Shown: piece after piece, positions 6,985-11,423 of the stretch
How the letters are laid out: every line of letters starts with the position of its first letter
How positions within the stretch are numbered: position 1 is the stretch's first letter
Assembly (NCBI GenBank): GCA_028870705.1
Contig: JAGWPD010000030.1
Location: 1 to 42,680, forward strand
Direction: 5' to 3'
DNA: 42,680 nt
Origin: Gammaproteobacteria bacterium
Lineage (GTDB): Bacteria > Pseudomonadota > Gammaproteobacteria > Steroidobacterales > Steroidobacteraceae
Made by a program: the position numbers and the translations under genes
Notes under the pieces: generated by a model
What the model was told of the DNA's origin: nothing
Databases searched by the model: none
Seen by the model: the letters and a program-made list of their open reading frames with translations, nothing else

Positions 6985-7626
6985 CTAGCGCGGCGGCAGG
7001 AATTTCGCCGTGGTCTTGGCGCGGATCTCAGCGAGCGTCACGCCCGGCGCCATCTCCAGCAGCTCGAATGGCGCATGCCGGTCGGGCCGGCTGAACACCG
7101 CAAGATCGGTGATCAGCTTATCGACCACGTTCGCGCCGGTCAGCGGCAGCTCGCAGCGCGGCTTGAACTTCGCGCTGCCATCCTTCGAGGTGTGCTCCAT
7201 CACCACGACCACGCGCTTGACGCCGGCAACCAGGTCCATCGCCCCGCCCATGCCCTTGACCATCTTGCCCGGGATCATCCAGTTGGCCAGATCGCCGTTC
7301 TCGCCGACTTCCATCGCGCCCAGTATCGACAGGTCGATGTGGCCGCCGCGGATCATGCCGAAGCTGTCGGCCGAGGAAAAATACGAGGACATCGGCAGCT
7401 CGGTGATGGTCTGCTTGCCGGCGTTGATCAGGTCCGGGTCTTCCTCGCCCTCGAACGGGAACGGGCCCATGCCGAGCATGCCGTTCTCCGATTGCAGCAC
7501 CACGCGCATGCCGGCGGGAATGTAGTTCGCGACCAGCGTCGGGATGCCGATGCCGAGGTTCACGTAGAAGCCGTCGCGCAGCTCCTGCGCGCCGCGCGCC
7601 GCGATCTCATCGCGCGTCCAGCCCAT
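6985..7626 (-). CDS. scoB: 3-oxoacid CoA-transferase subunit B
   Basis: The beta subunit of a succinyl-CoA:3-ketoacid CoA-transferase, which moves CoA from succinyl-CoA to acetoacetate or a related 3-oxoacid in ketone-body and polyhydroxybutyrate breakdown. The 213-aa length is normal. The motif [13 protein letters not shown] carries the catalytic glutamate (Glu47), to which CoA is transiently linked, and [13 protein letters not shown] precedes it. [22 protein letters not shown] is the typical mid-protein segment. Its ATG overlaps the scoA stop by one base (TGATG), so the two subunits are translationally coupled. The exact acid accepted cannot be decided from sequence; acetoacetate is the usual substrate for this subfamily. 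Confidence 0.92.
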
Positions 7627-8357
7627 CAGGCGGCTCCCGCGGCGGGGCGCTGGCGCACGGTGCGGTTCTCGATGGTCTTGAGATAGCCGCTGCCCCGGAT
7701 GATGCGCTGGACGAAGATGCCGGGCGTGTGGATCTTGTCCGGATCGAGCGTGCCCGCCTCGACCAGTTCCTCGACCTCGGCGACCGTGACGCGCCCCGCG
7801 CTCGCCATCATCGGGTTGAAATTGCGCGCGGTCTTGCGATACACGAGATTGCCCTCGGTGTCGCCGCGCCAGGCCTTCACCAGCGACAGGTCGGCGGTGA
7901 GGCCGGTCTCGAGCACATAGGTGTCGCCGTTGACGACGCGCTGCTCCTTGCCTTCGGCCACCAGCGTGCCGGCGCCGGTGCGCGTGTAGAAACCCCAGAT
8001 GCCCGCGCCACCGGCCCGGATCCGCTCCGACAGCGTGCCCTGCGGGTTGAACTCGAGCTCGAGCTCGCCCGCGAGGTACTGGCGCTCGAATTCCTTGTTC
8101 TCGCCGACGTAGGAGGAAATCATCTTGCGGATCTGGCGCGTCTTCAGCAGCGAGCCCAGCCCGAAGTTGTCGACGCCGGCATTGTTCGACACCACGGTCA
8201 GGCCCTTAACGCCCGAATCGCGCAGCGCGATGATCAGGTTCTCGGGAATGCCGCACAGCCCGAAGCCGCCGGACATCACGGTGATGCCATCGCGCACCAC
8301 GCCCGCGAGCGCGGCGCGCGCATCGGCGTAGACCTTGGGGCCGGTGGGTATAGCCAT
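7626..8357 (-). CDS. scoA: 3-oxoacid CoA-transferase subunit A
   Basis: The 243-aa alpha subunit partner of ScoB. I start it at [17 protein letters not shown]; the ORF-track start at 8582 runs through the 58-bp palindrome and into arnD and is not credible. [14 protein letters not shown] (29-42) is the CoA-binding glycine-rich motif of family I CoA-transferases, and [38 protein letters not shown] is characteristic of the ScoA subfamily. The gene lies 116 bp downstream of arnD on the same strand and probably has its own promoter, because the large palindrome in between would be expected to interrupt read-through. The scoA-scoB pair forms a simple two-gene operon. Confidence 0.92.
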
Positions 8358-8438: not shown

Positions 8439-8496
8439 AGCTAGGGCCTGTTCACACTTAGAACATCGATGTTCTAAGTGTGAACAGGCCCTAGCT
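8439..8496. repeat. Perfect 58-bp palindrome, possible miniature mobile element or strong terminator
   Basis: Both 29-base arms match without a mismatch around the centre ATCGAT, reading inward from AGCTAGGGCCTGTTCACACTT. CTAG occurs near both ends, so it can also be written as CTAG, a 46-bp perfect inverted repeat, then CTAG. That layout resembles a tiny element between 4-bp target duplications, and CTAG-type targets are known for IS5-family transposons. The composition is less GC-rich than the surroundings. It supplies the last five codons and the TAG stop of arnD. As RNA it would form a very long hairpin between arnD and scoA, so it could also end the arn transcript. No transposase is encoded. 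Confidence 0.9.
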
Positions 8497-9388
8497 GGCA
8501 GGCCAGCGTGCCGCTGCGGCCGGGAACCGTGCCGGCGCGCACCGCGCACGCGGGCAGCGCGTCCACCTCGAGCGTGCCGCACAGCGTGGCGAGCGACACC
8601 AGCTCATGCCCCTGCGCCTGCCAGCCGCCCAGCAGCCGTGTCAGCACCGGCAGCAGTTTCATGCCCTCGAGTTCGGCGTGCAGCGTGAACACGTGCGAAC
8701 TGCAGCCGGGCGCCGCCGCGCGCGTGCGCTCGAGCAGCGCCGCGTGCACGTTGGCCGCGGTCAGGCCATCGAGGCCGATCAGCTCATCGAGCGTCGGCAG
8801 CGTGGTCGGGAGCTGCGGCACGCGTCCGCGGCGACCCTCGAGCAGCGGCATGAACGGCGCGGTGCCGCGCGTATCGGAGGCGTAGGCGAAGCCGAGCTGT
8901 TCTTCCAGCGCCAGCGCGGATTCGTTCATCTGCCAGCCGGCCGCGCCGTGCACGCGCGGTGCGGCGGCGAACACCGCGGCGAAGCGCTCGAGCGCGAGCC
9001 GCATCTGCCGCTCGGTCCAGGCGGCGTCGCGCGCGGCGACGAAATCCTGCCAGGCGACATGGTCGTAGCAATGTACGCCGACCTCGAAGCCGGCATCGCG
9101 GGCCGCGCGCATCTGCGCGCCGGCGCGCCTGCCGATGTCGGGACCGGGCAGCAGCGTGCCGTACATGAGGGTGCGCAGGCCGTAGTGTTCGAGCACCGAA
9201 GTACGTGCCACCTTGCCGATGAAGCCCCGGCGGAAGACCCGCCGGATGGCGCGTCCGGTGTGGTCGGGGCCGAGGCTGAAGAGAAAAGTGGCGCCGGCGT
9301 TGGCGCGCTGCAGCGCGCGCACCAGCGCCGGCACGCCTTCGCGCGTGCCGCGCAGCGTGTCGACGTCGATCTTGAGCGCGATCTGCAA
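8474..9388 (-). CDS. arnD: ArnD, 4-deoxy-4-formamido-L-arabinose-phosphoundecaprenol deformylase
   Basis: Removes the formyl group from undecaprenyl-phosphate-linked Ara4FN on the cytoplasmic side, giving undecaprenyl-P-Ara4N. At 304 aa it is close to the E. coli enzyme. It begins MQIALKIDVDTLRGTREGVPALV, the ArnD version of the NodB-type metal site (IDVDT), and contains GFEVGVHCYDHVAWQDF, AAGWQMNESAL, ASDTRGTAPFMPLLEG and LPTTLPTLDELIG, all in the expected order. The C-terminus LACQ aligns with the native end, but the following LGPVHT and stop come from the 58-bp palindrome, so an insertion has probably replaced the original last residues. It is the last gene of the arn cluster. Confidence 0.93.
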   Translation of the reverse strand: MQIALKIDVDTLRGTREGVPALVRALQRANAGATFLFSLGPDHTGRAIRRVFRRGFIGKVARTSVLEHYGLRTLMYGTLLPGPDIGRRAGAQMRAARDAGFEVGVHCYDHVAWQDFVAARDAAWTERQMRLALERFAAVFAAAPRVHGAAGWQMNESALALEEQLGFAYASDTRGTAPFMPLLEGRRGRVPQLPTTLPTLDELIGLDGLTAANVHAALLERTRAAAPGCSSHVFTLHAELEGMKLLPVLTRLLGGWQAQGHELVSLATLCGTLEVDALPACAVRAGTVPGRSGTLACQLGPVHT

Positions 9389-9422: not shown

Positions 9423-10469
9423 CTAGTCCAGCAGGTGCGAAGCCTGCGGCAGCTGTCCGCGGTAGGCCTCGAAGATCTGCTGCAGCGCCTCGCGCATGCT
9501 GACGCGCGGCTCCCAGCCGAGTTCGCTGCGGGTGTTGTCGACCTTCGGCACGCGGTTGGCGACGTCCTGGTAGCCCTTGCCGTAGTACTCCCCGGAAGTG
9601 GTGTCGACCAGCTTGACCCTGGTGGCGTTGGCCGCGTACTCGGGATACTCGGCGGCCATCTTCAGCAGCATCCCGGCCAGCTCGCGCACCGAGTAGTTGT
9701 TCTGCGGGTTGCCGACATTGAAGATCTTCCGCGAGGCGCAGCCGTCCCTGTTCTCGATGATCTTCATCAACGCATCGATCCCGTCGCTGATGCCGGTGAA
9801 GCAGCGCTTCTGGCTGCCGCCGTCGACCAGTTTGATCGGCTCGCCGCGCACGATGTGCCCGAGGAACTGGGTGATCACGCGCGAACTGCCTTCCTTGGCC
9901 GAGTGCAGGTTGTCGAGTCCGGCGCCGATCCAGTTGAACGGCCGGAACAGCGTGTAGTCGAGCTTGCCTTCCGAGCCGTAGGCGTAGATCACGCGGTCCA
10001 TCAGCTGCTTGGAGCAGGCGTAGATCCAGCGCTGCTTCTCGATCGGGCCGTACACCAGCTCGGAAGCCGCCGGGTCGAACTCGGCGTCGCGGCACATGCC
10101 GTAGACCTCGGAGGTCGACGGGAACAGCACGCGCTTGCCGTGGCGCACGCACTGGCGAATGATCGGCAGGTTCGCCTCGAAATCGAGCTCGAACACCCGC
10201 AGCGGCTCGCGCACGTAGGTGGCCGGGGTCGCGATCGCCACCAGCGGCAGCACCACGTCGCACTTGCGGATGTGGTATTCGATCCACTCCTTGTTGATGG
10301 TGATGTCGCCCTCGAAGAACTTCATCCGCGGGTTGGACAGCAGCGGTTCGATGCGCTCGGAGTTCATGTCCATGCCGAACACGCTCCAGTCGGTGTCCTT
10401 GAGGATCCGCGCCGAAAGGTGGTGGCCGATGAAGCCGTTGACGCCGAGGATCAGTACTTTCGTGCTCAT
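9423..10469 (-). CDS. arnA: ArnA C-terminal function: UDP-glucuronate decarboxylating dehydrogenase, free-standing
   Basis: Oxidises and decarboxylates UDP-glucuronate to UDP-Ara4-ketopentose with NAD+, the first committed arn step. In E. coli this is the C-terminal half of bifunctional ArnA; here it is a separate 348-aa short-chain dehydrogenase. GVNGFIGHH (9-17) binds NAD. PSTSEVYG (117-124) contains the Ser/Glu pair specific to this decarboxylase, and YACSK (150-154) is the YxxxK motif. DVVLPLVAIATPATYV, FRPFNWIGAGLDNL and KRCFTGISDGIDALMKII are typical ArnA segments. It lies 18 bp after the formyltransferase gene and 34 bp before arnD. The Ser-Glu pair favours this over an ordinary UDP-sugar epimerase. 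Confidence 0.92.
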   Translation of the reverse strand: MSTKVLILGVNGFIGHHLSARILKDTDWSVFGMDMNSERIEPLLSNPRMKFFEGDITINKEWIEYHIRKCDVVLPLVAIATPATYVREPLRVFELDFEANLPIIRQCVRHGKRVLFPSTSEVYGMCRDAEFDPAASELVYGPIEKQRWIYACSKQLMDRVIYAYGSEGKLDYTLFRPFNWIGAGLDNLHSAKEGSSRVITQFLGHIVRGEPIKLVDGGSQKRCFTGISDGIDALMKIIENRDGCASRKIFNVGNPQNNYSVRELAGMLLKMAAEYPEYAANATRVKLVDTTSGEYYGKGYQDVANRVPKVDNTRSELGWEPRVSMREALQQIFEAYRGQLPQASHLLD

Positions 10470-10487
10470 AGTGGTGTTCCGCTCAAT

Positions 10488-11423
10488 TCAGTTGTCCTGT
10501 CGCCGGCCGTCGCCGAGCACCAGTGCGTCGCCGCCAAAGGCAGCGCGAAACGCCGCCGCATCCCGCACCCGCCCGTCGAGTTCGAATTCCAGCAGCCGCA
10601 GCACGCCATCGTGGCACAGCGCCCGCATCTCGCCGTCGACGCAGCGCAGCTCGGGTCGCGCCCCGCCGGGCCCCGGCACCGGCAGCGTGCGCAGCACCCG
10701 CAACGGCAGCCCCGCGGCCGTCGCGAAGGCGCCAGGATACGGTGGCGCCACTGCGCGCACCAGATTGTGCACGGCCATTACCCCCAGGCGCCAGTCTATC
10801 GCGCCATCGGCCGCGGTGCGGCGCCCGTAGTAACTGGCCTCCGCCTGCCGCTGCGGCCGCAGCACCGCCGTACCTGCCACCAGGCCCGGCAGCGCGCGCT
10901 GCAGGGTGAGCTCGGCGGCGACGCACACCTTGCGGAACACTTCCACGGCGGTGTCGTCCGGCAGGATCGGCACGGCCTGCGCATCGACGATGCCGCCGGC
11001 ATCCGGCCTGACCGTCATCGCATGGAGTGTGGCGCCGGTTTCGCGTTCGCCGTTCAGCACCGCCCAGTTCACCGGCACCCGCCCGCGGTACTTCGGCAGC
11101 AGTGAACCGTGCATGTTGTAGGCGCCGCGCGCCGCGGCCGCCAGCACGTCCGCGCCGAGCATGTGCCGGTAATAGAACGAGAACAGGAAATCGGGCGCGA
11201 GCGCCCGCAGCTTCGCCAGCAGCGCCGGCGCGTTCGGGTCGGCCGGCGTGAGCACCTCGAGGCCATGCCAGCGTGCGTGGCGCGCGACGCTGTCGAACCA
11301 GAGCGGCTCGCCCGCTTCCGTCTCGTGCGTGACGACCAGCGGCACCTCGACGCCCTGCCCCAGCAGCACGCGCAGGCAGCGCACGCCCACGTCGTGATAG
11401 GCGAACACGACCGCGCGCGTCAC
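10488..11423 (-). CDS. arnA: ArnA N-terminal function: UDP-Ara4N formyltransferase, free-standing
   Basis: Transfers a formyl group from 10-formyltetrahydrofolate to UDP-L-Ara4N. In E. coli this is the N-terminal domain of ArnA; here it is an independent 311-aa protein. The formyltransferase triad is visible: Asn103 and His105 in NMHGSLLPKYRGR, and Asp141 in HAMTVRPDAGGIVDAQ. The start MTRAVVFAYHDVGVRCLRVLL matches ArnA. The C-terminal part (AIDWRLGVMAVHNLVRAVAPPYPGAF) is the usual substrate-binding extension. Its ATG overlaps the arnC stop by four bases, indicating coupling. A methionyl-tRNA formyltransferase is ruled out by the ArnA-like N-terminus and the operon context. Confidence 0.92.
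   Translation of the reverse strand: MTRAVVFAYHDVGVRCLRVLLGQGVEVPLVVTHETEAGEPLWFDSVARHARWHGLEVLTPADPNAPALLAKLRALAPDFLFSFYYRHMLGADVLAAAARGAYNMHGSLLPKYRGRVPVNWAVLNGERETGATLHAMTVRPDAGGIVDAQAVPILPDDTAVEVFRKVCVAAELTLQRALPGLVAGTAVLRPQRQAEASYYGRRTAADGAIDWRLGVMAVHNLVRAVAPPYPGAFATAAGLPLRVLRTLPVPGPGGARPELRCVDGEMRALCHDGVLRLLEFELDGRVRDAAAFRAAFGGDALVLGDGRRQDN

Follow-up and report, generated by a model that had tools for sequence, protein, structure and literature searches.

The analysed window, by which we mean the whole stretch of 42,680 nucleotides, carries on its minus strand an arnD-like deformylase gene (8474..9388) and, as the next downstream gene on the same strand, scoA (7626..8357), coding for 3-oxoacid CoA-transferase subunit A. 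Over the 3' end of the arnD-like gene lies a perfect 58-bp palindrome, just as the initial annotation had described it: positions 8439-8467 and 8468-8496 are reverse complements (29 + 29 bases, 100% complementary, spacer of 0), with CTAG near both ends (8441-8444 and 8491-8494). The 23-mer GGCCTGTTCACACTTAGAACATC occurs in the window only in the two palindrome arms, with 0 occurrences expected in shuffled sequences; the best other inverted repeats of the window are 71-83% matched, and the next-best one with arms up to 60 bases apart has 28-nt arms matched at 71%. The palindrome far exceeds what chance would give, and its RNA strand folds with -58.7 kcal/mol (z = -14). Comparison with other copies sets the element proper at 8444-8491, i.e. 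48 bp between TA dinucleotides, composed of GGGCCTGTTCACACTTAGAACATC and its own reverse complement; the outermost AG/CT of the 58 bp are flanking sequence that matches by chance. The element consists of a left (8444..8467, plus strand) and a right (8468..8491, minus strand) terminal inverted repeat, the outer bases of the left one being common with an IS5-family insertion sequence (IS) of related genera, and it is bordered by TA at 8442..8443 and 8492..8493, which we read as the left and right copies of the target duplication within the respective CTAG. In the arn cluster of the window (9423-11423) ArnA appears to be represented by two separate genes, for the epimerase and formyltransferase parts.

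The genome of the window (G000; 2.99 Mb, a draft of 343 contigs) was searched with a 20-base element end, allowing up to 3 mismatches, which gave 41 matches, and 0 for the reversed control. Read in context, these correspond to about 31 elements, mostly MITEs of 241-313 bp or pieces thereof, and they take the form of inverted pairs of ends 241-313 bp apart, single ends, fragments and four palindromes. Many of the single ends and fragments are located at contig ends, as expected for a repeat in a draft assembly. The full-size member of about 265 bp contains inverted repeats around two inner hairpin modules and no gene; in a 271-base stretch with such a copy the outer inverted repeats pair around two inner hairpins (-180.9 kcal/mol, z -17). 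Four other species of the genus also harbor the family, and the sister species G003 has a palindrome of its own. In a genus outside that of the window (G136) we noticed MITEs of 283-298 bp that share these ends and resemble the family in their inner modules. In 23 genomes from the order's other families the 22-base end was absent, and when about 85,000 species genomes were scanned for a sequence identical to the end, only MAG fen_1191 gave matches, at three positions that are the same as in G005. Two contigs of G000, C99 and C113 (L174, L175), both end within one MITE, and their flanking genes are adjacent and convergent in G002, so these contigs are probably joined through one element. The right flank of the C308 element is the left flank of the C256 element (L168, L173), the two elements differing in size, which points to a duplicated region or to a strain mixture in the assembly.

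Chimeric reads are a known source of perfect palindromes, and a hairpin chimera of a read end would be a product of just this kind. The two flanks of the palindrome differ, however, and run into the conserved arnD-scoA gene order, and four more palindromes have different flanks, three of them with imperfect arms and one in another assembly. Taken together, an assembly artefact is extremely improbable.

An IS with the same outer bases, which the initial annotation had proposed to look for, occurs in other genera of the family. It is 805 bp long, with complete copies of 804-805 bp in G135 (L303) and G016 (L322) and ends of the same element in G105 and G150. Its ends read GGGCCTGTTCACACT or GGGCCTGTTAACACT, and the outer 16 bases of the element, AGGGCCTGTTCACACT, are identical to one end of the G135 copy. 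The two overlapping ORFs of the IS gave profile matches to DUF4096 and DDE_Tnp_1 and to NCBIfam IS5_3; with NF033580, ORF-B scored above the cut-off and ORF-A just below it. In size and in the arrangement of its genes the IS conforms to the IS427 group of the IS5 family, whose members are of about 0.8 kb, with two overlapping ORFs, a presumed frameshift and 13-21-bp ends (PMC3281130); the window element differs from them in having no transposase gene, the IS having been found only in other genera. An IS427-type transposase was not found in G000, a 343-contig draft from which IS copies may be missing. One partial ORF-A match was noticed in a sister species, and no pair of ends at IS distance was found inside the genus. 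The IS1182/IS5_4-like and IS630 elements of the genus (L255, L257, L259, L269, L271) were rejected as partners: several are at CTAG, but their ends differ. Among them, L257 (G000:C137, about 490-1795) is a complete IS5/IS1182-like element with ends CTAGCAGCCTGATGC, inserted at CTAG with one side on a gene's TAG stop, and the IS630 elements L269 and L271 have CTAG flanks too.

The initial annotation had suggested that a minimal, IS5-like transposable palindrome had entered a CTAG site and replaced the end of arnD, as opposed to a single copy present at the same place in all relatives with no matching IS ends. Many copies, element-free relatives and matching IS ends were found instead, and we consider it very probable that the palindrome is what remains of a MITE, belonging to an IS5-family (IS427-type) insertion sequence, after loss of the core.

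The same annotation counted 46 bp between CTAG duplications; the CTAG context was borne out, while the duplication is better described otherwise and the element is 48 bp long. Target sites were compared for 30 two-ended elements, of which 19 have TA on both sides. With CTAG on both flanks a 2-bp and a 4-bp duplication are indistinguishable, and this applies to both complete IS copies as well, which have CTAG on both sides and are equally compatible with 2 bp or 4 bp. The informative flanks are those of 15 other copies: four are flanked by TA left and right (TTA..TAG, CTA..TAT, TTA..TAG, GTA..TAT) and a 4-bp repeat occurs in none, while in the remaining 11 TA is found at just one end or at no end, for which decay or deletion must be assumed. 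On account of these non-palindromic flanks, which speak against a 4-bp CTAG duplication, the data favour a 2-bp TA duplication with CTAG as the preferred context, as in the IS427 group, including IS1248 and ISPpa2 of Paracoccus, where nearly all captured members show a 2-bp duplication (PMC3281130). A comparable element is MITEPsy1 of Pseudomonas syringae, which is 100 bp long and inserts at CTAG or YTAA; according to the available part of its description it is likewise short, gene-less, directed to CTAG and thought to be IS-derived, but a 4-bp duplication was reported, and that part mentions neither a core-less palindrome nor a position at stop codons (PMC3189936).

Five core-less palindromes are known to us, four in G000 and one in G003, and all are exactly 48 bp, from GGG to CCC, plus TA on each side. 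The inner ends of the inverted repeats in full-size copies read ATCGAT (or GTCGAT/ATCGAC), a motif which belongs to the inverted repeat and at the same time, by its own palindromic symmetry, constitutes a direct repeat. Deleting the interior between two ATCGAT copies gives exactly the observed ...AGAAC-ATCGAT-GTTCT..., and in the window the ATCGAT centre (8465..8470), the sole remaining copy of this direct repeat, is the proposed deletion junction. Judged from these comparisons, the palindrome is most likely the core-deleted form of the ~265-bp MITE and not the usual form of the family. An IS427-type transposase would move the gene-less MITE in trans, cutting at TA within CTAG and duplicating TA, and slippage at the foot of the hairpin may then remove the whole interior between the ATCGAT repeats, leaving a perfect 48-bp palindrome. 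The PATEs of Haloquadratum walsbyi are a described case of repeat-mediated core loss in which the ends become fused; unlike the present family, they are of IS605 type and have no terminal inverted repeats and no target duplication (PMC3119063).

Alternatively, the 48-bp palindrome could be the mobile element itself, two transposase binding sites placed back to back, which would put it among the smallest transposable elements. Five copies of the same extent at unrelated sites in two species, with TA/CTAG intact on both sides, speak in its favor, as does the one clean empty site obtained, for the C138 palindrome (CTGCGCGACTAG[..]CTAGCGCCGCG in G000 and CTGCGCGACTAGCGCGCCGCG in G002). Moreover, if one of the two is reversed, the C138 and C310 palindromes each differ by a single mutation from what can be taken as a common 48-bp sequence. 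Deletion between ATCGAT repeats would, however, always yield a product of the same length, the arms vary in sequence among copies, and the G003 palindrome has the TTGGAAC variant seen in the other copies of G003, so we regard independent mobility of the 48-bp unit as rather unlikely. The palindromes offer a sharp test of the minimum transposable unit, i.e. two abutted inverted repeats of 48 bp in total.

Turning back to arnD as the site of the probable core-deleted MITE, the gene in G002, G003, G001, G014, G005 and G013 contains no element and ends in ...CQQ(A/L/S)-TGA. In G000 it reads ...CQ-LGPVHT-TAG, running into the palindrome, with the native TGA end gone; the element and its edge provide the last codons LGPVHT and the stop TAG (8474-8476), the TAG being supplied by the T variant of CACTYAG. 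The claim that the last codons and stop of arnD were replaced thus proved right. The arnD-scoA spacer lacks some tens of bases that G005 and G013 have, and the sequence is shared from about CAGGTCGCG on; the element therefore came with a small deletion, or a small deletion came after it. Plain insertion into CTAG is not a sufficient account here, because with the site empty arnD would read on in frame into scoA, and because of the missing spacer. The new six-residue end of arnD would have resulted from arrival of the copy and, in whichever order, removal of the native stop plus some of the spacer. For the window copy no clean empty site was found among the compared relatives.

The initial annotation further proposed a very strong terminator separating arn from scoAB, for which the sequence gave no support. 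The terminator scan revealed no T-run after the stem on either strand and no terminator-like site, and since no T-run follows the hairpin, a classical terminator at the palindrome is unlikely. It might still have been kept as a transcription terminator or as a protector of RNA 3' ends between the arn operon and scoAB, given the very stable hairpin between two gene groups on the same strand and the fact that family copies are mostly placed directly behind stop codons. The latter position, however, is accounted for by the CTAG target, and this hairpin is absent from the relatives at arnD-scoA, so in view also of the scan result we give this role little credence. The palindrome may also influence read-through from arn into sco or the stability of the RNA.

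Most family copies are located on TAG stops and leave the genes undamaged, the arnD copy being the exception. CTAG is strongly avoided in G000, whose genome is GC-rich: 36 sites were counted in 181 kb, compared to 546 expected from base composition and 160 by Markov estimate, and 13 of the 32 sites outside elements are gene stop codons. For 22 of the 40 element ends of G000, the edge TAG, formed by TA and the first G of the element, is the precise end of a gene-like frame, compared to 0 and 0 gene ends in the other two frames, and most of these genes also have a TAG stop at the corresponding position in relatives that lack the element. By eye, the peptides ending at elements include what we take to be the ends of SmpB, YidC, PurL, PstB and AccD. 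Since CTAG is avoided and often occurs as C-TAG, and since the element begins with G, so that TA + G restores TAG on both sides, copies on such stops would do no harm and would build up there. The excess at stops beyond the availability of CTAG is only weak (21 of about 30 elements compared to 13 of 32 other CTAG sites, Fisher p = 0.02, weaker if n = 31); we do not claim active targeting of stop codons, the simplest reading being target plus survival rather than active aiming. A target avoided by the genome can in practice become a stop-codon address, and a gene-less element thereby spreads over tens of genes, apparent smpB, yidC, purL, pstB and accD among them, without breaking reading frames. 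The stronger combined proposal, that two abutted 24-bp ends are a complete mobile unit and that the family uses C-TAG stops genome-wide as a harmless landing site, its first base restoring the stop on both sides, also between convergent genes, is in our opinion doubtful. BOX and SPRITE of Streptococcus pneumoniae and QMITE2 of Coxiella are similar in lying at gene 3' ends, where they can give a stop or a C-terminal extension; their sequences are different, and the available parts of these reports describe no single-codon precision through a CTAG/TAG target (PMC3049150, PMC5896051). In G003 a 48-bp family palindrome (L145; G003:C76:44185-44234) lies between convergent genes and appears to give the TAG stop of both, and in G000 a single family end (L072; G000:C114:1166) is placed directly behind an apparent smpB, just upstream of a tmRNA-like gene.
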